Origin: Flavobacteriaceae bacterium
GTDB lineage: Bacteria > Bacteroidota > Bacteroidia > Flavobacteriales > Flavobacteriaceae
DNA length: 64,000 nt
Reading direction: 5' to 3'
Assembly: GCA_030683815.1 (NCBI GenBank)
Contig: JAUXPJ010000014.1
Location: 62,001-126,000 of the forward strand
The notes beneath the pieces were generated by a model, which was not told where the DNA came from, ran no database searches, and was given only the letters and a program-made list of their open reading frames with translations. The translations under genes were made by a program, and so were the position numbers. Position 1 is the first letter of the stretch; the number at the start of each line of letters is the position of its first letter. Shown here in pieces: positions 1,543 through 11,488 of the stretch.

Positions 1543-1863
1543 TTATAACATTCGTAAATTAATGATATCCATTAATTCTTTCTTCCTGCTTTTACTGATG
1601 GGTAATTGATAGTTACCAATACTGATAATGTTATTTTGAATGAAGTTAATTTTTTCAAAATTAATAATGTAAGACCTATGAATCTGTATAAACTTGTCGT
1701 TTGGTAAAACATTTAATAAACTGGAAAGAGATAAAAGAGTCACAATTTTTTTGTCTTCCATAAAAAAACGAACATAATCGCCCATACTTTCAATATAGAC
1801 AATTTCCTGAATATTGATTTTCTGAATTTTATAGTCCGATTTAACAAAAAAGTAGGTATTCAT
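1543..1863 (-). CDS. Stand-alone LytTR-type DNA-binding regulator
   Basis: A 106-residue protein made of essentially one LytTR DNA-binding domain. The family landmarks are present: the IVYIESMGDYVRFF strand pair near the N-terminus, the LLSLSSLLNVLP helix, and the HRSYIINFEKI core. LytTR domains usually sit at the C-terminus of response regulators after a receiver domain. Here there is no receiver and no histidine kinase nearby, so the signal is unknown. The gene is divergent from the PqqD/ATP-grasp operon with only about 145 bp between, which makes local control of that operon, and possibly autoregulation, the simplest guess. That link is inference. Confidence 0.85.
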   Translation of the reverse strand: MNTYFFVKSDYKIQKINIQEIVYIESMGDYVRFFMEDKKIVTLLSLSSLLNVLPNDKFIQIHRSYIINFEKINFIQNNIISIGNYQLPISKSRKKELMDIINLRML

Positions 1864-1929
1864 TTTCTTACTTAACGATTATAAATGTCAACTCATCGAG
1901 CAATTGCGTCCATCAATCAAAAACATTCT

Positions 1930-1957
1930 TTGAGTCAAATTTAATGAAATATATTTG
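1930..1957 (+). promoter_or_regulatory. Flavobacterial promoter of the PqqD/ATP-grasp operon
   Basis: TTG at 1930-1932 (inside TTTG) and TATATTTG at 1950-1957 are 17 bases apart. This matches the known Bacteroidota -33 TTTG / -7 TAnnTTTG pattern. Transcription should begin near base 1962, giving a leader of about 45 bases before the PqqD-like gene. It is among the best promoter matches in the window. Confidence 0.75.
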
Positions 1958-2008
1958 GATAGGTAAATAGGCAAGATGATAATTATCAGTTAATAAATTT
2001 TAAATCCC

Positions 2009-2251
2009 ATGAAATTAAAAAAAAGCATAGCAATCAGTGAAAACGGATTTGTGTTCAATCCTGAGATAGGAACTTCTTTCACAACAAATTCATTAGGAGT
2101 AGCCGTTTTAAAACAATTAAAGAATTTAACCACCAAAGAAGAAATTAGAGCTTCAATTCTTAAAAGTTATGAGGTTGATGGAGTTACTTGTGAAAAGGAT
2201 TTAGATGATTTTTTAAGAATGTTAGATCAATATAATCTGATAGAAGACTAA
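2009..2251 (+). CDS. PqqD-family peptide-binding protein
   Basis: An 80-residue protein of the PqqD / RiPP-recognition-element type. It has the expected order: ISENGFVFNPEIGTSF beta strands, a helix with LGVAVLKQLK, then a winged-helix-like part ending in FLRMLDQYNLIED. PqqD-like domains classically bind a precursor peptide and hand it to a modifying enzyme, often a radical SAM protein. No radical SAM gene is present; the next gene, one base downstream of the stop codon, is an ATP-grasp ligase. The partner enzyme may therefore be a ligase, which is unusual. I found no obvious precursor peptide gene between the promoter and this ORF. The family call is fairly firm; the role is inferred from context. 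Confidence 0.75.
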   Translation: MKLKKSIAISENGFVFNPEIGTSFTTNSLGVAVLKQLKNLTTKEEIRASILKSYEVDGVTCEKDLDDFLRMLDQYNLIED

Positions 2252-2252
2252 G

Positions 2253-3305
2253 ATGAAAAAAAAGAAAGATATAACCATTGCAGTAACCGGACTCAATGCA
2301 ATCGATAGCCCCGGTCCTGGAATTTCGGTTATCAGAGGATTAAAAGATAGTAAGGAATTTAATGTTCGGATTATTGGCTTGGTGTATGAAATTTTAGAAC
2401 CCGGAATTTATATGGATGGAATGGTAGATAAGGTATATCAAATTCCTTATCCTTCTACCGGATTTGACGTGATGTTAGAACGCTTTAAATACATTCAAAA
2501 AAATGATAAAATTGATGTAATCATTCCCAATTTTGATGCAGAATTGATGGCTTTTATCAAACTAAAACCCTATTTCAAAGAAATGGGAATTAATTTGTTA
2601 ATCCCAAATAAAGAACAATTTGATGATCGTTTAAAAGGAAATTTAAATGATTATGGAGATAAACATGGTATAAAAGTCCCCAAAAGTGAATCAGTTCATT
2701 CTATTAAAGAATTAGAAGATGAAATAGAAGAATTTGATTTCCCTGTGGTTATAAAAGGAAAATTTTACGATGCTTATATTGCACATTCCATAGAACAAGC
2801 AAAAGAGTATTTCCATAAAATAGCTGCCAAATGGGGAACACCCATTATACTTCAACAATTTATTAAAGGAAATGAATTTAATGTAACTGCCATTGGAGAC
2901 GGAAAAGGAATTATGGTAGGAGCCGTACCTATGCGTAAAACTTTTATCACCGATAAAGGAAAAGCGTGGGCGGGAATCTCAATTGATGATTCAAAACTAA
3001 TTGATATGGCCAATAATATCATTACTAAATCCAAATGGCCTGGAGGGATGGAACTCGAATTGATGAAAGAAGATAAAACAGGTGATTTATATTTATTGGA
3101 AATTAATCCGCGTTTTCCGGCTTGGGTATATTTAGCAGTGGGTTGTGGTCAAAATCACCCGGAAATGCTGGTAAAAATGGCTATGGGCGAAACGGTTGAA
3201 CCTATAAAAACCTATGATATAGGTAAAATGTTTATACGCTATTCTTATGATATGATTTGCGATTTAGAGAAATACGCCAATCTATCAATTCACGGTGAAG
3301 TTTAA
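2253..3305 (+). CDS. ATP-grasp carboxylate-amine ligase, carbamoyl-phosphate-synthase-like
   Basis: A 350-residue soluble enzyme of the ATP-grasp fold, which joins a carboxylate to an amine or similar nucleophile through an acyl phosphate. An N-terminal alpha/beta domain (residues 1-115) opens with the glycine- and proline-rich stretch LNAIDSPGPG. The ATP-grasp region has PVVIKGK (164-170, nucleotide-binding Lys168), QQFIKGNEFNV (201-211) and the metal-binding LLEINPRFPAW (281-291, Glu283, Asn285, Arg287). It resembles CPS-large-subunit-like ligases but is a single domain. The substrate is unknown. It starts one base after the PqqD-like stop, so the two are almost certainly translated together; the next gene follows after 19 bases. 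Amide-bond formation on a peptide or amino acid is the natural inference. Confidence 0.8.
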   Translation: MKKKKDITIAVTGLNAIDSPGPGISVIRGLKDSKEFNVRIIGLVYEILEPGIYMDGMVDKVYQIPYPSTGFDVMLERFKYIQKNDKIDVIIPNFDAELMAFIKLKPYFKEMGINLLIPNKEQFDDRLKGNLNDYGDKHGIKVPKSESVHSIKELEDEIEEFDFPVVIKGKFYDAYIAHSIEQAKEYFHKIAAKWGTPIILQQFIKGNEFNVTAIGDGKGIMVGAVPMRKTFITDKGKAWAGISIDDSKLIDMANNIITKSKWPGGMELELMKEDKTGDLYLLEINPRFPAWVYLAVGCGQNHPEMLVKMAMGETVEPIKTYDIGKMFIRYSYDMICDLEKYANLSIHGEV

Positions 3306-3324
3306 TTATTAAAAATAATTGATT

Positions 3325-4683
3325 ATGAGCAAATTAAAATACGAAAGTCCGAATATAAAACAAATACACGCCGGAATAACCAGTAAATTCGGTGAATCAA
3401 GTACCTTAAAACCAATAACCCATATTAATACCGTGCCGGTTAAAGACTTAATAAACACCTACGGATCACCCTTATTCGTAATTTCTGAACAGAATATCCG
3501 CAATACCCACAAAGAGGCCTATCATGCTTTTTCAACAAGATATCCCAATGTACAATTTGCGTGGTCATACAAAACAAATTATTTAGATGCTGTTTGTAAA
3601 GTTTTTCATCAGGAAGGAGCGTGGGCAGAAGTGGTTTCCGGGTTTGAATACAGAAAAGCGCTCAAAAATGGCGTTAGCGGTGATAAAATTTTATTCAATG
3701 GTCCCGATAAATCAGTGGAAGATTTAACCCTGGCAATTCAAAATAATTCGCCCATTCATATTGATCATTTTGATGAATTATTCAGTTTAGTTGAGGTTAC
3801 CAATCAACTTCAAAAACGAGCTAAAGTTGCTATCAGAGTTAATATGGATACAGGTATCAAACCTTTATGGGATCGATTCGGATTTAACTATGAAAACGGA
3901 CAAGCATGGGATGCCATTACTAAAATAATGTATTCTAAAAATCTAGATTTGGTCGGACTTCACACGCATATCGGAACTTTTATTCTCGATCCGAATGCGT
4001 ATTATATTGCCGCTTCTAAATTGGCAGATTTAGCGATTCATATAAAGAAAAAGCACAAACACGATATTCAATATATTGATATGGGAGGTGGATTCGCATC
4101 AAAAAATACTTTAAAAGGTTCGTATTTAAGCGGGATGGAAATATCGCCTTCTTTTAACGAATATGCCGAAAAAATAACTTCAGCTTTATTAAATGCAGGT
4201 TTCAGTACCGAAGATTTACCTTTATTGATTTTAGAAACAGGAAGAGCACTCATTGATGATGCCGGATATTTGTTGGGAACAGTATTGGCCAATAAAAGAT
4301 TGTCTGACGGAAGAAGATCCATGGTAATGGATTTTGGAGTAAACCTGTTATTTACCTCTTTTTGGTACAATCATATTATTTCGCCCGCCCAAGAATGTAG
4401 TTTATATACCGAAGATACCGTAATGTACGGACCACTTTGTATGAATATTGATGTGATTAGAGATAGTATCAATTTACCACCCTTAAATAAAGGGGATCAT
4501 GTTGTTGTTCAGCGAGTTGGAGCTTATAATATGACGCAATGGATGCAGTTTATAACCTTAAGACCCAGAGTTGTTATGATTGATGTTAAGGGCAAACCTC
4601 ACCTAATCAGAGATAGCGAAACGAGTGAATACGTTACAGCACTCGAAAAAATCCCCAATCATTTGGAATCATTAGATTTATAA
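3325..4683 (+). CDS. PLP-dependent decarboxylase, diaminopimelate/ornithine decarboxylase fold
   Basis: A 452-residue fold-type III PLP enzyme (alanine racemase-like barrel plus beta domain). Visible landmarks: the PLP lysine in AWSYKTNY (Lys83), HTHIGTF (213-219), MGGGFA (253-258) that holds the phosphate, ETGR (304-307) where DapDC has EPGR, the Cys/Asp pair of the partner active site in CMNID (Cys372, Asp376), and GAY (399-401). An upstream TTG at 3319 is in frame, but the ATG at 3325 is the better start. It should decarboxylate an amino acid such as meso-diaminopimelate, a carboxy-polyamine or an amino-acid conjugate made by the ATP-grasp enzyme. The setting argues against housekeeping lysA, since no lysine genes are near. 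Confidence 0.8.
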   Translation: MSKLKYESPNIKQIHAGITSKFGESSTLKPITHINTVPVKDLINTYGSPLFVISEQNIRNTHKEAYHAFSTRYPNVQFAWSYKTNYLDAVCKVFHQEGAWAEVVSGFEYRKALKNGVSGDKILFNGPDKSVEDLTLAIQNNSPIHIDHFDELFSLVEVTNQLQKRAKVAIRVNMDTGIKPLWDRFGFNYENGQAWDAITKIMYSKNLDLVGLHTHIGTFILDPNAYYIAASKLADLAIHIKKKHKHDIQYIDMGGGFASKNTLKGSYLSGMEISPSFNEYAEKITSALLNAGFSTEDLPLLILETGRALIDDAGYLLGTVLANKRLSDGRRSMVMDFGVNLLFTSFWYNHIISPAQECSLYTEDTVMYGPLCMNIDVIRDSINLPPLNKGDHVVVQRVGAYNMTQWMQFITLRPRVVMIDVKGKPHLIRDSETSEYVTALEKIPNHLESLDL

Positions 4684-4701
4684 AAATTACAGCGCTAACC
4701 A

Positions 4702-6900
4702 ATGTCAGAAATCTATAAGTATTGGAAATTTTTCAATAACAGTGTGCTGCACAGTTATTCCCAAATCTTTTTCTCTAAGAATAAATCCTTTGCATTGCTA
4801 ATTTTATTGGCTTCATTTCTGAATCCTGCCATAGGATTTTGGGGATTTGCTGCCGTAATTTTTACGAATGTATTGGCAAAATGGATGGAATTCGATTACC
4901 AAACTAATGAAGATGGCCTGTTCGGCTTAAATTCTCTATTGGTTGTTTTAGGTTTAGCGGTTTTTTTTAATGTAAACTTTAGTTTCTTATTCGTTTTTAT
5001 CACGATTAATATCTTCACACTGTTATTGTCTGTCGGTATTTCCAATTTAATGGCGCGTTTTAATTTACCTTTTTTAGCATTTCCTTTTATAATTGCTATG
5101 TGGGTCACATTTTATGTGATGAATAGTTATACCAATTTAGAAGTTAATGAAGGGAATGTGTATTTTTTAAATGATATTTTTAAAATCGGCGGACAATTAT
5201 TTTTAAATCTATATGAAACATTTGAAACGCTCCCAATACCCGATTTCATTACCGGATATTTTAAGTCGTTAGCGGCAATCGTATTTCAATTTAATTGGAT
5301 TGCCGGGATATTTATTGCTATCGGATTGTTTATAAGTTCAAGAATTTCCTTCACCTTATCACTTATCGGATACAGTACCGGATACTTGTACTATATGATT
5401 GTTGGGGAGAATCTCAACAACTTACATTACGGTTATATTGGCTTTAATTTCATACTATTTGCCATAGCGGTAGGAGCGTTTTATTTTGTATCAAAACGAA
5501 AAGTGCATTTAGCGGTCATAATTTTAACCCCGGTTCTGGGACTTATGATTACCGGTTTAAGCGGATTTTTAGCAGTTTTTGGATTACCCGTTTTTGCATT
5601 GCCTTTTATGCTGATGACCGTTTTGGTAATTTATACGATGAATTACACCACTAACTTAAGCACTTTTCCTAAGGTGATTTACCAAACCTACTCGCCGGAG
5701 AAAAATTTGTATAATTACTCTAATTATATGGAACGATTTGGGAGCAATCAACACTTTTTAAAAATTGGATTGCCATTTTATGGAAAATGGAAAGTTTGGC
5801 AAGGGCATGAAGGAAAACACACTCATAAAGGTGATTGGAAAAATGCGTGGGATTTTGTTATTGATGATAAAAAAGGAAATACTTTTAAGAATGATGGACA
5901 TTTATTAGAAGATTACTATTGTTATAATACCCCAATTGTAGCTCCTGCAGATGGAAATGTGGTGAATATTGTAGATGGAATTCCTGATAATATTCCCGGA
6001 GAAATCAACATGAATCAAAACTGGGGAAATACCATTGTTATAAAACATTCAGACTTTTTGTATTCACAAATAAGTCATTTAAAAGAGGATTCATTTAAAG
6101 TGAAAGAAGGTGATTTTGTAAAGAAAGGACAACAACTTGCCAAGCTGGGAAACTCAGGGAGATCACCGCAACCCCACATTCATTTTCAATTGCAAACCAC
6201 TCCTTTTATAGGATCTAAAACATTAAAATATCCGTTGAGCTATTTTATAAAAGAAACTGAAAATACAGCGGTTTTTTCATCGTTTGATTATCCTGTAGAA
6301 GGCGATAATTTAACGGATGTAAAAATAAATAAAACGATCAATAAAGCCTTTAAGATGATTCCGGGGATGATTTTTGAAGTCAATTCTACCCAGCCCGAAT
6401 TTGAAGCTACCGAGTGGGAAATAAATACTGATGCGTACAACTTAACCTATATAGTATGTGCAAAATCAAAAGCCTATGCGTATTTCGTAAATGACGGAAC
6501 CATGTTGTACTTTACCTCATTTGAAGGGGATAAAAATTCGTTATTATACTATTTTTATCTAAGTGCTTTTAAAATTTTCTTGGGAGATTATTACACTATA
6601 AAAGTGAACGATGTACTTCCTATTCATACTGTTTTTGGCGGTTATATGAAATTTTTTCAAGATATAATAGCACCCTATTACCAATATTGCAGCGCTGATT
6701 ATGAATCTTTTTTAAATGAAGTTGATAAAGATTCAACAAATTTCACGATAACAGCTACCCTTACTAAAAAGATTTTTAATAAAATGAAGGAACAACTGAA
6801 TTTTAAAATTATGGGTAATGACAATTCCTTGAAAAAAATAGAAGTCAAAACACCTCAAAGTACATTTGATATAAATTTAAAATTGAAGTTAAATTATTAA
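4702..6900 (+). CDS. Urea-transporter-like channel fused to an M23 metallopeptidase
   Basis: A 732-residue two-part membrane protein. Residues about 25-320 are an all-helical membrane domain with both internal repeats of the urea transporter family: DGLFGLNSLL (71-80) matching YGYIGFNFIL (243-252), and the signature LPxxTxPF twice, as LPFLAFPF (122-129) and LPVFALPF (295-302). In both copies the conserved Thr is Ala (126 and 299), so selectivity may differ from urea. Residues about 360-520 form an M23 peptidase: HTHKGDWKNAWDF with His375 and Asp384, ISHL (His459), and PHIHF with zinc His492 and His494. About 210 less conserved residues follow. M23 enzymes cut cell-wall peptide crosslinks or act as regulators. 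The role of the fusion is unknown. It sits 18 bases after the decarboxylase and 2 before the next gene. Confidence 0.85.
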   Translation: MSEIYKYWKFFNNSVLHSYSQIFFSKNKSFALLILLASFLNPAIGFWGFAAVIFTNVLAKWMEFDYQTNEDGLFGLNSLLVVLGLAVFFNVNFSFLFVFITINIFTLLLSVGISNLMARFNLPFLAFPFIIAMWVTFYVMNSYTNLEVNEGNVYFLNDIFKIGGQLFLNLYETFETLPIPDFITGYFKSLAAIVFQFNWIAGIFIAIGLFISSRISFTLSLIGYSTGYLYYMIVGENLNNLHYGYIGFNFILFAIAVGAFYFVSKRKVHLAVIILTPVLGLMITGLSGFLAVFGLPVFALPFMLMTVLVIYTMNYTTNLSTFPKVIYQTYSPEKNLYNYSNYMERFGSNQHFLKIGLPFYGKWKVWQGHEGKHTHKGDWKNAWDFVIDDKKGNTFKNDGHLLEDYYCYNTPIVAPADGNVVNIVDGIPDNIPGEINMNQNWGNTIVIKHSDFLYSQISHLKEDSFKVKEGDFVKKGQQLAKLGNSGRSPQPHIHFQLQTTPFIGSKTLKYPLSYFIKETENTAVFSSFDYPVEGDNLTDVKINKTINKAFKMIPGMIFEVNSTQPEFEATEWEINTDAYNLTYIVCAKSKAYAYFVNDGTMLYFTSFEGDKNSLLYYFYLSAFKIFLGDYYTIKVNDVLPIHTVFGGYMKFFQDIIAPYYQYCSADYESFLNEVDKDSTNFTITATLTKKIFNKMKEQLNFKIMGNDNSLKKIEVKTPQSTFDINLKLKLNY

Positions 6901-6902
6901 TT

Positions 6903-8153
6903 ATGAAGAAAATAGTAATAATGGTGGCAGTTCTTGTAGGAATTAATCTAAATGCCCAAGAAGATGATTACAACTCTAAAACCTTAGCCTTATTTAGTGA
7001 AGGTGATTGGAAAAGTTTAATTGAGTTGGCTAAAGAAGCTGAAAAAAATAATCAATCTTCGTTTGAAATTGAGTACCGATTGGCGGTTGCTTACTACAAC
7101 ACCGCTAATTATTTTGACAGCGCATCGCATTTTAAAAAATTGATTGCAACTTATGATGTGAATTACGATTACATCAATGAATATCTTTACTATTCTTATC
7201 TTTTTTCGGGAAGAGAAACTGATGCTTTATTGCTGGCAAAGAAATTTCCATTTCATTTACAACAGAAAATAAATCTTAAAGAACAGGAATTCTTTGATTT
7301 TGTTTATGCTGAAGGTGGTGTTAAAGTAAGTGATAGAAGATATATTGATGTTAAAAATTTATCTTATTTTAATTTCGGATTAGGACATAATATCGGACCG
7401 GCATTCAAAATTTATCAAGCTTTTTCTACGTTATCACAACAATACATCGATTTTGATTATAAGCAAACAGAATATTACATCAATGCAAATACTCAAATAG
7501 GAGATGGTTTAACCCTTATTCCTGCGTATCACTATATTAATATTGCAGATCAAAATCCCCAATATCAAACTATCCAAGTTCCTGGAGGCGGAAATAGATT
7601 TACCACTGTTAGAATTGCCAATAAGGATCAAAAATTGCATGTTTTTTATTTCGGGTTAAAAAAACAATGGAGCAGATTGAGCTTGATGCCAAATATTACC
7701 GGCTCATTGTCTAATGGAACCGGTGAGCAAGGACAATCTGTACAAACAAACCAATTTCAATATGGGGTAGATGCAGGATACTCCCTAAAAACTTTTAATG
7801 ATAAAGTTTGGCTTGGTTTTGGTGGCTATGTTCATAATGATGAAGTAGAAAACAATTTTATTTGGAATGTAAAAACCTATTTTCAACTAAACCCAAAGAC
7901 TTATTTACTCGCCAAATACAGCCAATCAAAAGTGTCTAATTTTTCAGAGGATAATGCATCCGTGTTTGTTAATGCGCTTTCTAAATCAAAAGGTAAAATA
8001 AGCGGCACTTTAGGAACAAATTTATCTGAAAAATTAAAGATTTATTTAAACTATCAATTTGAAAATTTGGAAAACAGTGATGAGAATACAGTTGAAAATA
8101 ACTTTAACTTTACCTATAATACTTTTATCATTGGGTTAAAATTAGATTTGTAA
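6903..8153 (+). CDS. Secreted TPR plus outer-membrane beta-barrel protein (YaiO-like architecture)
   Basis: A 416-residue exported protein. A cleavable signal peptide covers about residues 1-19 (ends LNLNAQ). Residues about 25-130 are helical and TPR-like (AYYNTANYFDSASHFKKL). Residues about 140-416 are alternating strands typical of an outer-membrane barrel and end in FIIGLKLDL, a C-terminal strand with aromatic and hydrophobic alternation. The order TPR then barrel resembles YaiO-family proteins. It begins 2 bases after the urea-channel/M23 gene, so it belongs to the same operon and could be the outer-membrane part of the system. The cargo is unknown. Confidence 0.7.
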   Translation: MKKIVIMVAVLVGINLNAQEDDYNSKTLALFSEGDWKSLIELAKEAEKNNQSSFEIEYRLAVAYYNTANYFDSASHFKKLIATYDVNYDYINEYLYYSYLFSGRETDALLLAKKFPFHLQQKINLKEQEFFDFVYAEGGVKVSDRRYIDVKNLSYFNFGLGHNIGPAFKIYQAFSTLSQQYIDFDYKQTEYYINANTQIGDGLTLIPAYHYINIADQNPQYQTIQVPGGGNRFTTVRIANKDQKLHVFYFGLKKQWSRLSLMPNITGSLSNGTGEQGQSVQTNQFQYGVDAGYSLKTFNDKVWLGFGGYVHNDEVENNFIWNVKTYFQLNPKTYLLAKYSQSKVSNFSEDNASVFVNALSKSKGKISGTLGTNLSEKLKIYLNYQFENLENSDENTVENNFNFTYNTFIIGLKLDL

Positions 8154-8175
8154 TATTAAAATAATAAATAAACAG

Positions 8176-8793
8176 ATGAAACAGTTCTTTTTTGCCTTTG
8201 GTTTTTTATTCGTAATCTTTTCTGGAAATGCTCAAAATGGAGATCTTTTAAGTGCTTTTGAGAAAAGTTACATCCATGAGATAAACCAAGATTACATAAA
8301 ATCCATATCAAGTTTAGAAGCTTTATATACTAAATACCCATCTAATTTTGAAACAAATTTAAGATTAGGATGGCTTCATTATTTGTCGGGTAATTTTAAA
8401 GATTCCGATAAATATTATTCCAAAGCAGTGGAGTTAAAACCTTTGGCGTTGGAAGCTATTTATGGCAATATTTTACCGCTGTTGGCTCAAGGAAAATATA
8501 ATGAAGTCTTAATATTATCAAATAAAGCACTCTCCATAGCGCCTAATGATTCTCGAGCGGAATACTACATTGGTGTGGTGAGTTACTATCAAAAAGATTA
8601 TCCCAAATCGGAACGATTTTTAGAAAAAGCCATCAATAAATACCCATTTGATTTGGATCTAAATTTAATGTTGGGTTGGACAAAATTTGCCTTAGGTAAA
8701 AAAAATGAAGCCAAAGCCTTATTCCAAGTTGCACAAAGAAATTCTCCGAATAGTACAGCTGTTAAAACCGCTCTTGATGCCATCAATAAGTAG
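8176..8793 (+). CDS. Secreted tetratricopeptide-repeat protein
   Basis: A 205-residue protein with a signal peptide (residues 1-20, ends SGNAQ) followed by five or so TPR helices, for example LRLGWLHYLSGNFKDSDKYY and AEYYIGVVSYYQKDYPKSER. It is likely periplasmic and a protein-binding scaffold. It lies 22 bases downstream of the TPR/barrel gene and is the last gene before a strong terminator, so it closes the operon. It resembles the TPR half of the preceding protein, hinting that the two pack together. No enzymatic motif is visible. Confidence 0.75.
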   Translation: MKQFFFAFGFLFVIFSGNAQNGDLLSAFEKSYIHEINQDYIKSISSLEALYTKYPSNFETNLRLGWLHYLSGNFKDSDKYYSKAVELKPLALEAIYGNILPLLAQGKYNEVLILSNKALSIAPNDSRAEYYIGVVSYYQKDYPKSERFLEKAINKYPFDLDLNLMLGWTKFALGKKNEAKALFQVAQRNSPNSTAVKTALDAINK

Positions 8794-8852
8794 AAATAAC
8801 TGCTGAATTATAGTATTTCTTAGAATGAAAAACATATTTTTAATTTATATGG

Positions 8853-8877
8853 AAGCCACGTTTAGCGTGGTTTTTTT
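8853..8877 (+). terminator. Rho-independent terminator closing the PqqD/ATP-grasp operon
   Basis: Stem CCACG (8856-8860), loop TTTAG, stem CGTGG (8866-8870), extended by A-T and G-T pairs on each side and followed by seven T. It marks the 3' end of the six-gene unit. On the other strand it lies just past the stop codon of the convergent membrane-protein gene. Confidence 0.85.
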
Positions 8878-8883
8878 ATACTA

Positions 8884-9576
8884 TTATTTTTGTGGTTTTA
8901 AATTTGCAACCGCTAATAAAATTCCTAATGCAATTCCTAAAAGTGCCGCAAAAAGTACTTGTAAATCAGGAGGTAACAGAAAAGTGATGGTATGAGCCGG
9001 AATCCAAAATAAAGGAATTGTTTTCTTAAAAGTAAAATACCACTGCGTATTCCAATCTAAGTTTGAGAATATTTCTCCAAATTTGATAGGAGTCAAGAAT
9101 CCTTTTAAAGTTCCCTGATTGCTGAGAATATGTGTGTCAGTAATTTTATGAAGTGTCATCATTATTGGTGCGTAAATTAGATTAATAGCTACGCTAATCG
9201 AAAATGAAACTCCTATTTTTTGTAAAGTGATTGGATTAGACATGATTTGTTTGATATCTTCCAATCCGATAGATTCTAAAAAGGCAGGAGTTCCGACAGC
9301 AAAAATTACAAAAGCTATCTTAATGGTGATTCCTAAAAATCCCCAAACAATTGCTCTGGGTAAAACCCCAAATCCTTTTTGAAAATAATTTCTGGTTTTA
9401 ATTCTCAATCCAATTAATTCTCCTAAAGTTGCTAAAACTGCAAATTTTAAAAAACTGGCTATCAGCGGATGAAGCTGATTGAACTCTTTATAAAAATGAT
9501 AAGGTTCATCAGAAATAAAGAAAGGAAAAAACAACAGTACAAATAAGCTACAAAAAAGCAAGTCGTTTTTTTTCAT
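8884..9576 (-). CDS. Multi-pass membrane protein, Mpv17/PMP22-like
   Basis: A 230-residue membrane protein with about five hydrophobic segments. The C-terminal third (WNTQWYFTFKKTIPLFWIP, then THTITFLLPPDLQVL-type residues) resembles the Mpv17/PMP22 signature of a W-x-x-W/P turn before a membrane helix with Asn/Thr-Phe and Pro. Bacterial members are uncharacterised, and mitochondrial relatives have been proposed to form channels. It is monocistronic on the minus strand, convergent with the preceding operon and separated from lysS by REP-like repeats. The family call is from memory of the signature and is moderate; the membrane topology is clear. Confidence 0.5.
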   Translation of the reverse strand: MKKNDLLFCSLFVLLFFPFFISDEPYHFYKEFNQLHPLIASFLKFAVLATLGELIGLRIKTRNYFQKGFGVLPRAIVWGFLGITIKIAFVIFAVGTPAFLESIGLEDIKQIMSNPITLQKIGVSFSISVAINLIYAPIMMTLHKITDTHILSNQGTLKGFLTPIKFGEIFSNLDWNTQWYFTFKKTIPLFWIPAHTITFLLPPDLQVLFAALLGIALGILLAVANLKPQK

Positions 9577-9591
9577 AAAAATAGTATTTTA

Positions 9592-9624
9592 CACACCCCC
9601 CTAACTCCTCTCAAGAGGGGAATT
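9592..9624. repeat. REP-like palindromic repeat, left arm
   Basis: It contains CCTCTCAAGAGG, a perfect palindrome, plus a CACACCCCCCTAACT tail. It is the inverted partner of 9713-9743, with nearly 90% identity between arms. Together they form a paired REP-like unit in the gap between the Mpv17-like gene and lysS. Confidence 0.65.
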
Positions 9625-9712
9625 AAAAATAAATATATTTAACTGAATTGAAGTCAAAATTTTTATATCAACAAAAATAGATTAAGAAAATCACAAAAAT
9701 AAAATGCACCTA

Positions 9713-9743
9713 AATTCCCCTCTTGAGAGGGGTTAGGGATGTG
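9713..9743. repeat. REP-like palindromic repeat, right arm
   Basis: A palindrome CCCCTCTTGAGAGGGG (9717-9732) followed by the tail TTAGGGATGTG. It is the inverted copy of 9592-9624. The palindrome plus a TAGG-rich tail also describes the repeats near 32.6 kb, so these may be one dispersed family. Confidence 0.65.
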
Positions 9744-9781
9744 TTTTTTATTTTAAACGGAATAGCAATATTTATAAAATA

Positions 9782-11488
9782 TTAATTAACAACGTCCACC
9801 ACCAATCCGTTTTCGGCCTGATTCACTTTTACTAAATTATTCTTAGTCAATACTTTAATAGTTTTATCCCATTTTTTACCGCTTAATCCCGATTGGTTCT
9901 TCAATTCATTTAACTCGATTGGAGAGTTGGTTTTCAAAATTTCCAACACTGCTTTTTCTTCATCATTTAAAACAATTGCTTGTGCGGCACGCACTTCTGG
10001 TCTCATTTGCGGGAAAAAGAGGACTTCCTGAATGGAACTATTATTAGTCATCAACATGACAAGTCGGTCAATTCCAATCCCAATTCCTGAAGTTGGAGGC
10101 ATACCATATTCTAGGGCACGCAAGAAATCTTGATCGATAAACATAGCTTCATCATCTCCTTTTTCTGATAAACTCAATTGATATTCAAAACGTTCACGTT
10201 GGTCAATCGGGTCATTTAATTCGGAATATGCGTTCGCTAATTCTTTTCCGTTGACCATCAGTTCAAAACGCTCAGTTAAAGCTGGATTGGTGCGATGTTC
10301 CTTTGTTAACGGACTCATCTCTTTTGGATAATCTATAATAAAAGTAGGTTGAATGTAATGATGCTCACATCTTTCGCCAAATATTTCATCAATCATTTTG
10401 CCAATTCCCCAGGAATCTTCCACTTCGATATGTAATTTTTTACATACATCTTTTAACTGAGCTTCATTCATTCCGGCTAAATCAAAACCAGTGTGTTCTT
10501 TAATAGCATCCAAAATTGAAATTCGTTTGTAAGGGGCTTTAAAATTGATAACATTTTTACCTACGATAACTTCGGTTGATTTGTTAGAATCTATTGCAAC
10601 TTTTTCTAATAGTTGCTCCGTCATTTCCATCATCCAGTTGTAATCTTTGTAGGCGACATAGAGTTCCATCACCGTAAATTCCGGATTATGAGTTCTGTCC
10701 ATTCCCTCATTTCTGAAATCCTTAGAAAATTCATAAACGGCATCAAATCCGCCTACAATGAGTCGTTTTAGATATAATTCGTTGGCAATTCTTAAGTAAA
10801 GCGGGATATTTAAAGCATTGTGATGCGTTAAAAATGGTCTTGCAGCTGCACCTCCCGGTATCGGCTGTAAAATAGGCGTTTCAACTTCTAAATAATCCCT
10901 ATCATTAAAGAAATTGCGAATGGAATTGGTTATTTTAGTGCGTTTGATAAACGTATCTTTTACATGGTCATTCACAATTAAATCTACATAACGTTGGCGA
11001 TAACGCATTTCAGGATCGCTAAAAGCATCGTGAATTTTACCATCAGCATCGGTTTTTACAACAGGTAGCGGACGCAATGACTTGGTTAAAACGGTTAATT
11101 CTTTTGCTTTAACAGAAATTTCACCAACTTGAGTTTTGAAAACTTCACCTTTAATACCGATGATATCACCAATATCAAGCAATTTTTTAAAAACAGTATT
11201 ATACACCTCTTTATCATCACCGGGCGCAATTTCATCTCTATTGATATAGATTTGCATTCTTCCTGAAGAATCTTTTAATTCAGCAAAAGAAGCTTTGCCC
11301 ATAATCCTACGGCTCATAATTCTTCCGGCAAGCACTACTTCTTTCCCTTCAAAAGCATCAAAATTGTTTAAAATATCATGGATGTAAGCAGTGGTTTTAT
11401 ATGCTGCTGCCGGATATGGATTGATGCCAAACTCGCGTAATTTTTGCAAAGATTCTCTACGAATAATTTCCTGTTCTGATAATTGCAT
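9782..11488 (-). CDS. lysS: Lysyl-tRNA synthetase, class II, with C-terminal winged-helix extension
   Basis: It charges tRNA-Lys with lysine in the cytosol. The 568-residue protein has an N-terminal OB-fold anticodon-binding domain ([17 protein letters not shown]), class II motif 2 ([15 protein letters not shown]) and motif 3 ([12 protein letters not shown]) before FFPQMRPE, where most bacterial LysS proteins end. Here about 70 more residues follow. They look like a small winged helix ([20 protein letters not shown] then a basic NNLVKVNQ strand). I recall such extensions in flavobacterial LysS proteins; their role is not known to me. The gene stands alone on the minus strand. Confidence 0.97.

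Follow-up and report, generated by a model that had tools for sequence, protein, structure and literature searches.

What do six closely packed genes do together when their products range from a small PqqD-domain protein and an ATP-grasp ligase to a urea-channel fold fused to an M23 metallopeptidase? The question is raised by a 64,000-nucleotide stretch of Flavobacteriaceae contig JAUXPJ010000014.1 (here called the window), which is part of a 2.5-Mb genome (G000, contig C20) whose nearest relatives at this locus, among the matches listed, are Flavobacteriaceae metagenome-assembled genomes (MAGs). The plus strand carries, between 2009 and 8793, genes for the PqqD protein, the ligase, a fold-III pyridoxal phosphate (PLP) decarboxylase, the channel/M23 fusion, a protein that joins tetratricopeptide repeats (TPRs) to an outer-membrane barrel, and a second TPR protein. 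These six genes almost certainly constitute one functional unit, since all six families are found together in each of the 50 untrained loci that have enough flanking sequence. As to function, the favored reading is that the operon produces and exports a small amine or amide derived from an amino acid, and the probability of this whole chain of events is put at about 0.37.

Co-occurrence and layout of the six families

The ATP-grasp family is present in 27 of 296 sampled Bacteroidota genomes, this one included (E <1e-90, 42-100% identity), and is sharply bounded, the best match in the next genome falling to 50.8 bits. Extended loci from 29 carriers (26 of the 296-genome sample and three others) served as the training set, while the untrained set consisted of the best 80 of at least 562 stretches with ATP-grasp relatives in a collection of 84,980 species. 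Being the best ATP-grasp matches, these 80 loci are biased towards closer relatives, and many are contig ends; family counts therefore use only loci with enough flank (50 of the 80 for all six families), and L091, whose contig ends before the ATP-grasp gene, is excluded. The 80 loci come from Bacteroidota and their kin, except for a few evidently mislabelled MAGs, and among the carriers are Algoriphagus and Cyclobacterium isolates (L155, L165, L147). In one genome (G306, contig C1) the same ATP-grasp gene is found with equal score near both ends of a 3.74-Mb contig (3928-4962 and 3735344-3736378), which is probably an assembly end overlap.

A profile search recovered all six families in 50 of 50 untrained loci, the counts by family being 79/79 for PqqD, 77/77 for the decarboxylase, 62/63 for the channel/M23 fusion, 50/50 for the barrel and 50/50 for the TPR protein. 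The corresponding numbers among training loci are 28/29, 29/29, 28/28, 23/26 and 24/26, with all six in 22/26. Also counted as a barrel is a shorter protein (~275 aa, cluster 9), on which L072 and L087 rest alone; this protein appears barrel-like without TPRs, follows the TPR gene or lies nearby in 13 loci, and gave no family match in the one member scanned. In the open reading frame (ORF) listing of the training loci the decarboxylase and channel/M23 genes come after the ATP-grasp gene in 29/29, and PqqD was left unlabelled by the ORF caller in four (L076, L078, L086, L090), of which the six-frame profile search missed only L086. Of 108 loci, 107 have PqqD no more than 450 nt ahead of the ATP-grasp gene. 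A gene-order check returned no violation, its search windows being such that only decarboxylase-before-channel was truly tested, and distance correlations among the three largest proteins (0.82-0.88) fit co-inheritance, yet are equally expected from shared descent.

A preliminary description of this locus, made from the sequence alone, had treated the set as one system, and the finding that the six families are consistently neighbors elsewhere upholds this view. The objection it had raised against itself, i.e., that these might be independent housekeeping genes, was rejected on account of the 50 complete loci and of a separate LysA encoded in the same genome (contig C12, 382.5 bits), the ATP-grasp family moreover occurring in so few of the sampled genomes. 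Its account of the layout also agrees largely with the coordinates and Pfam matches: six same-strand genes with gaps of 1-22 nt (successively 1, 13 or 19, 18, 2 and 22 nt, the decarboxylase gene starting either at 3325 or, in the ORF list, at a TTG at 3319), a terminator behind the operon, and a lone LytTR regulator facing away from it. The terminator region (8845-8882, 38 nt) folds 5.5 SD better than shuffles (z -5.5); a stock terminator scan of the window did not list this hairpin, and its total of terminators was not above expectation (4 vs 4.3). The near-consensus promoter that had been claimed in front of the operon survives in part, in that a match to the Bacteroidota promoter consensus is present, but such matches do not exceed chance across the window (9 vs 7.1 expected), and the final G of the pattern is A in 4/4 aligned close relatives. 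Sigma-70 matches in the window are likewise at chance level (39 vs 37.1 expected, sd 6.2). Upstream of the operon, TAnnTTTG is found in 20 of 106 loci vs 10.1 in mononucleotide shuffles (largest 16), and together with a TTG box in 4 of 106 vs 1.1 (largest 5), both being weak signals. With a pattern about as frequent as chance predicts and a final G that the relatives do not share, the promoter is regarded as no more than plausible. The features of the locus are listed below.

Features of the locus and their positions in the window
Feature	Position	Strand	Basis
Divergently oriented LytTR DNA-binding regulator (106 aa)	1543-1863	-	PF04397, 70.8 bits
Possible Bacteroidota-type promoter, TTTG-N17-TATATTTG	1929-1957	+	Pattern match
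PqqD-domain protein, 80 aa	2009-2251	+	PF05402, 45.1 bits (cut-off 23.4)
ATP-grasp amide ligase, CPS-like/PylC-like group, 350 aa	2253-3305	+	PF15632, 40.8 bits
Fold-III PLP decarboxylase, FigC/DAPDC clade, 452 aa	3325-4683	+	PF02784, 108.3 bits
Urea-transporter-fold channel (residues 1-345) fused to M23 (351-530) and a C-terminal beta-rich domain (~535-732)	4702-6900	+	Pfam UT, 174.1 bits; M23, 63.1 bits
TPR and 14-strand outer-membrane beta-barrel	6903-8153	+	Predicted structure; no Pfam match
TPR protein, 205 aa, probably periplasmic	8176-8793	+	PF07719, 63.1 bits, three stretches
Intrinsic terminator of the operon	8856-8877	+	CCACG-N5-CGTGG hairpin, then seven T

The enzymes and the candidate chemistry

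According to the favored reading, the PqqD protein would hold an acceptor, which may be a peptide tail or another small partner, on the ATP-grasp ligase, and the ligase, with its conserved active-site residues, would join an amino acid to this acceptor by an amide bond. The PLP enzyme would, by analogy to its known relatives, decarboxylate the amino acid in its attached state, after which the M23 domain, placed by charge bias on the cytosolic side at the mouth of the channel, would free the product. The altered urea-channel fold would then move the product to the periplasm, and the TPR protein, together with the protein that has a TPR domain and 14-strand barrel, would move it across the outer membrane, the folds of both pores being modelled and their cargo and direction inferred.

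The PqqD domain is a known peptide-binding element, and the PqqD gene of the operon is the sole PqqD match in this genome. PqqD is also the only Pfam match of the 80-aa protein at E values up to 1, no match to a phosphopantetheine carrier being obtained. A LysW-like carrier with a ligatable C-terminal acid was considered and rejected, because the C-termini of PqqD vary among 26 aligned sequences. The ligase matches CPS-like models of the NCBIfam PRK12767 type below their equivalog cut-offs, with a weak match to a PylC-like N-domain, and the residues K168, E208, E267, E269, E283 and N285, which are typical of the ATP-grasp fold, are each missing from no more than one of 111 family members.

The decarboxylase is best described by its place among the fold-III enzymes. 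The family profile scores 298.6 bits against FigC, an N-citrylornithine decarboxylase and its nearest solved relative, followed by 232.9 against the best diaminopimelate decarboxylase (DAPDC), 160.5 against DokD and 147-148 against BtrK, and the motifs SYKTNY and GPLCMNID are almost invariant across 105 members. A LysA/DAPDC identity was rejected: the protein scores 213.6 bits against the LysA model TIGR01048, under the cut-off of 297.9; the residue that follows the catalytic Cys is Met in 105/105 members, while the solved DAPDCs 1twi, 1tuf and 2p3e have Glu (CE); and another LysA is encoded in the genome, as stated above. Section 9 of PMC7857480 groups FigC, SbnH, AcsE, MccE and BtrK with the DAPDCs and D-ornithine decarboxylase, and the same part of that article describes the substrate of these five enzymes as an amino acid, or a group resembling one, that has previously been linked to citrate, to a microcin or to the carrier protein BtrI. 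The presence of an amide ligase beside a decarboxylase of this kind therefore suggests, by analogy to BtrI/J/K, an order in which ligation would precede decarboxylation.

The same enzymes could serve a pathway resembling those for ribosomally synthesized and post-translationally modified peptides (RiPPs), in which PqqD would recognize a ribosomal peptide or protein encoded elsewhere, the ATP-grasp enzyme would extend or cross-link it, and the PLP enzyme would decarboxylate the new end. This account, which we consider unlikely, would explain the PqqD domain (45.1 bits), and a potential cargo is at hand in the cluster 8 proteins, which recur beside or inside the operon in 14 loci (L071, L072, L073, L074, L075, L077, L079, L081, L082, L122, L139, L153, L154, L163), have, in L072 and L163 (the two that were scanned), a sorting tail for type IX secretion, and are possible partners or targets of the system. 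It is set back, however, by the comparison of four loci by eye, in which no conserved small ORF was found around the operon (a distant precursor being possible), by gaps of 1-22 nt in the window that leave no room for an inner precursor gene, and by a ligase that appears from its sequence to belong with CPS/PylC-like models.

The two pores and the placement of the M23 domain

The AlphaFold model of the fusion protein (pLDDT 89.6) shows a channel domain with the urea transporter (UT) fold (Z 36-38 over 306-318 residues), in agreement with its match to PF03253 (174.1 bits, cut-off 25), followed by an M23 domain (63.1 bits, cut-off 28.7) with fold matches of Z up to 14.1; the structure-match listings leave other folds possible. 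Residue counts were made on 90 members of at least 650 aa, out of 107 sequences so labelled. At the positions with roles in the urea filter of DvUT, the first Thr is replaced by Ser in 79/90 and by Ala in five and kept in four, the second is Ser in 61/90, Val in 12, Thr in nine and Ala in eight, and the Glu of the GE(V/I)xFQ motif is kept in 0/90, while 78/90 retain the Gln in the first re-entrant helix, 85/90 Phe 24 and 88/90 Phe 195. In stand-alone Bacteroidota UTs, by contrast, both filter Thr residues, the Glu and the Gln are kept in 6/6. With the fold kept and the filter residues replaced, the domain is taken to be a pore with a UT fold and a changed filter. The earlier label of a urea channel thus holds for the fold, but not for the filter, which differs from that of the stand-alone UTs of the phylum.

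The orientation of the channel can be predicted from its short loops, as chosen from the helices of the predicted model. These contain on average 4.6 Lys and Arg residues on the C-terminal side vs 0.3 on the other, the former number being the larger in 90/90 members, and the stand-alone UTs have the same charge-predicted orientation (5 vs 0-1). UT termini are cytosolic in this orientation. The linker (residues 316-365) has no likely membrane helix, with a peak 19-residue hydropathy mean of 0.21 and a largest value of 1.06 among the 90 members. Because the charge bias places the C-terminus of the channel in the cytosol, the M23 domain is probably located there too, and its metal and catalytic residues (H375, D384, H459, H492, H494) are conserved in 90/90. 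Free cysteines, present in odd number in 48/90 members, had been considered as a further sign of a cytosolic M23 domain, an argument that was dropped because the secreted stand-alone relatives L007 and L008 contain cysteines as well. If the placement is correct, the urea-channel fold may have been repurposed, with the metallopeptidase at its cytosolic end freeing the product of a PqqD-guided ligase/decarboxylase line straight into the pore, from which it would continue to a dedicated TPR outer-membrane pore; such a coupling of biosynthesis to a channel, which would be of a new class, is advanced as a tentative proposal, with odds well below even.

The predicted cytosolic side counts against a role at the cell wall, to which the preliminary description had pointed by noting that M23 enzymes cut cell-wall peptides. 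Of its proposal that a product is made in the cytosol and handled at the envelope by the channel and barrel, the cytosolic enzymes, the inner-membrane channel fold and the outer barrel fold are supported, whereas a wall-cutting M23 is not. A corresponding explanation, in which peptidoglycan is opened or trimmed by a periplasmic M23 domain and the wall or surface receives the small product, would fit the full set of catalytic residues, the secreted appearance of the stand-alone M23 relatives, and the PBP2 and RodA genes that directly precede the operon in seven loci (L098, L103, L105, L117, L120, L121, L135; Pfam on L098 only), with an AraC-cluster gene between in six. It would, however, have to overcome both the charge bias, which is uniform across the 90 members and shared with the stand-alone UTs, and the linker that has no likely membrane helix to carry the domain to the other side, and is accordingly judged improbable.

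The model of the fifth protein (pLDDT 91.7) consists of a TPR part (residues 20-132), which matches designed and natural TPRs (Z 13.6-13.7), and a barrel (129-416) with 14 long strands, which matches CymA, FadL and OmpG with Z 18-21 over 252-272 residues in the top rows, at 5-12% identity. The fifth and sixth proteins both have N-termini that by eye resemble signal peptides. Because both pores resemble passive channels, i.e., the UT fold and the OmpG/CymA/FadL-like barrel, the direction of transport would be set only by gradients. This resemblance also favors uptake or salvage, in which a small amide or amine would be imported through the two pores and processed by the ligase, the decarboxylase and a cytosolic M23 domain; a ligase that consumes ATP, with a decarboxylase acting after it, would nevertheless point to synthesis more than to breakdown, and import is held to be just as improbable as the wall-directed role.

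Two further explanations take the closest named relatives at face value. A siderophore or metallophore akin to either rhizoferrin or staphyloferrin B would agree with FigC being the nearest relative of the decarboxylase. In the docking model presented in the relevant part of PMC7857480, however, FigC binds citrate through H357 and R387, and the positions aligned with these are Ile and Gln in 105/105 members; the match to the NCBIfam model FslC (234.8 bits) is also under its cut-off of 500, and a citryl-ornithine decarboxylase identity was rejected on both grounds. Furthermore, no NRPS-independent siderophore (NIS) synthetase, major facilitator superfamily (MFS) exporter or TonB receptor was found in the six core families and 20 accessory neighbors scanned, which are the neighbors to which this and the other family scans below refer, and a siderophore is considered very unlikely. 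A true urea transporter used to scavenge urea or nitrogen, to which the PF03253 match would point, is the least credible of all, given the replaced filter residues, a score of 121.5 bits against TIGR03441 (cut-off 274.6), and the scarcity of urease, which has one strong match (E 7e-59) and four weak ones (E 5e-5 to 2e-4) among 31 carrier genomes, one weak match among 31 other genomes, and none in this genome.

Several observations also speak against the favored reading, i.e., synthesis of a small amine or amide followed by its export, of which the chemistry, cargo and direction are inferred. Its weakest links are the ligand of PqqD, the size of the product in relation to a urea-channel fold, and the direction of transport. 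Urea channels pass very small neutral molecules, whereas an aminoacyl-diamine would carry charge and be rather bulky for a pore of this type. The PqqD protein offers a variable C-terminus and, in the four loci compared, no accompanying precursor peptide gene. Moreover, not every training locus has a recognizable complete set, the barrel being absent in 3/26, the TPR protein in 2/26 and PqqD in 1/29. As regards the fusion protein, the nearest stand-alone M23 relatives (L007, L008) begin with a signal peptide or lipobox, so that the ancestry of the domain looks extracytoplasmic; at least one member has, within residues 366-732, a 19-residue stretch with a hydropathy of 1.72, like some membrane helices; and the C-terminal beta-rich domain (535-732) gave no significant Pfam or NCBIfam match in a whole-protein scan. 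Finally, DAPDC and D-ornithine decarboxylase, of the same clade as the decarboxylase, use free amino acids according to the part of PMC7857480 concerned, and decarboxylation of an attached group is therefore not forced.

Neighboring genes, meaning and comparison with known systems

A homologue of the divergent LytTR regulator (~106-115 aa) occupies the same place in four of the five closest relatives (L092, L093, L095, L096), the contig of the fifth (L094) starting at the ATP-grasp gene. A cluster of LytTR response regulators (20 members, three of them Pfam-checked) supplies the first upstream gene in nine more of 106 loci, and this gene belongs to an AraC, LytTR, hybrid-kinase or extracytoplasmic function (ECF) cluster in 36/106 loci vs 9/353 distant genes, the clusters being named from one to three members each. 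These local regulators next door suggest that expression of the operon answers to signals. Five loci (L123, L128, L133, L149, L166) have, between the decarboxylase and channel/M23 genes, a gene from a cluster that is IF-2B-like (the single member scanned matches PF01008), which could hint at a further step in the making of the product.

Beyond the terminator, the window contains on the minus strand a gene for a membrane-like protein of 230 aa (8884-9576), whose only match, to Mpv17/PMP22, stays below threshold (18.6 bits, cut-off 27), and a gene for a class II D/K/N-type tRNA synthetase (9782-11488; PF00152), a protein of 568 residues in which the domain match stops at residue 495 and leaves a C-terminal extension. 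Between these two genes lies an inverted repeat (9593-9744) with arms of 57 nt that are 74% complementary, a spacer of 38 nt and a near-perfect core of ~25 nt, which looks like a small palindromic repeat element.

The preliminary description had noted the absence of radical SAM enzymes, non-ribosomal peptide synthetases (NRPSs) and transporter ATPases, and indeed no radical SAM, NRPS or ABC transporter was found among the six core families and the scanned neighbors. It had also known of no described pathway with this composition; in a search of one open-access library, outside which most subscription papers fall, neither a pathway with this gene set nor the channel/M23 fusion nor a cytosolic placement of M23 was found. 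Each of the domain families is already known, and the product itself may prove familiar. In a sample of 148 genomes, 17 have a UT match, and in 15 of these the match is in the operon (in one, G200, with a broken frame), for which reason the name urea transporter probably misleads for most such proteins of the Bacteroidota. The operon is common across the phylum. Should the tentative coupling of biosynthesis to a channel be real, probably hundreds of Bacteroidota species would make the metabolite and pass it through a passive export line spanning two membranes, of which most UT-family matches of the phylum would be parts. The favored reading, if correct, would entail a new metabolite, a novel use for the fold of urea channels, an M23 peptidase at work in the cytosol, and export without an ATPase.

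The individual components are each reminiscent of a known system. The channel has the fold and the charge-predicted orientation of the UT family (DvUT, UT-A, UT-B, and the stand-alone UTs for the orientation), but its filter Thr residues are mostly Ser, its filter Glu is absent, and it continues into C-terminal M23 and beta domains. The M23 domain shares its fold and all five metal and catalytic residues with DipM, LytM, lysostaphin and LasA, from which it differs in its predicted cytosolic side and in the spacing of the first His and Asp, which is nine here and usually four in M23 peptidases. The outer pore has a 14-strand barrel like the OmpG, CymA and FadL channels, to which an N-terminal TPR domain is added here, and the identity is as low as 5-12%. 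A PqqD-type domain and an ATP-grasp enzyme are also paired in loci with RiPP recognition elements and in graspetide loci, whereas here the four loci compared by eye have no precursor peptide and the ligase appears CPS/PylC-like. With FigC/FslC of rhizoferrin biosynthesis, the closest solved relative, the decarboxylase has W-x-R-F-G-F and GPxCM in common, but the citrate-binding His and Arg are Ile and Gln throughout, and the ligase is an ATP-grasp enzyme instead of an NIS synthetase. In butirosin biosynthesis, BtrJ is the ATP-grasp enzyme that loads BtrI. The present set resembles BtrI, BtrJ and BtrK in pairing an ATP-grasp ligase with a small partner protein and with a decarboxylase from the clade of BtrK (for BtrI and BtrK, see the corresponding part of PMC7857480), with the differences that the small protein is here a PqqD protein and not a phosphopantetheine carrier, that the decarboxylase scores higher against FigC and DAPDC than against BtrK, and that a channel, an M23 domain and an outer-membrane barrel are joined to the set.

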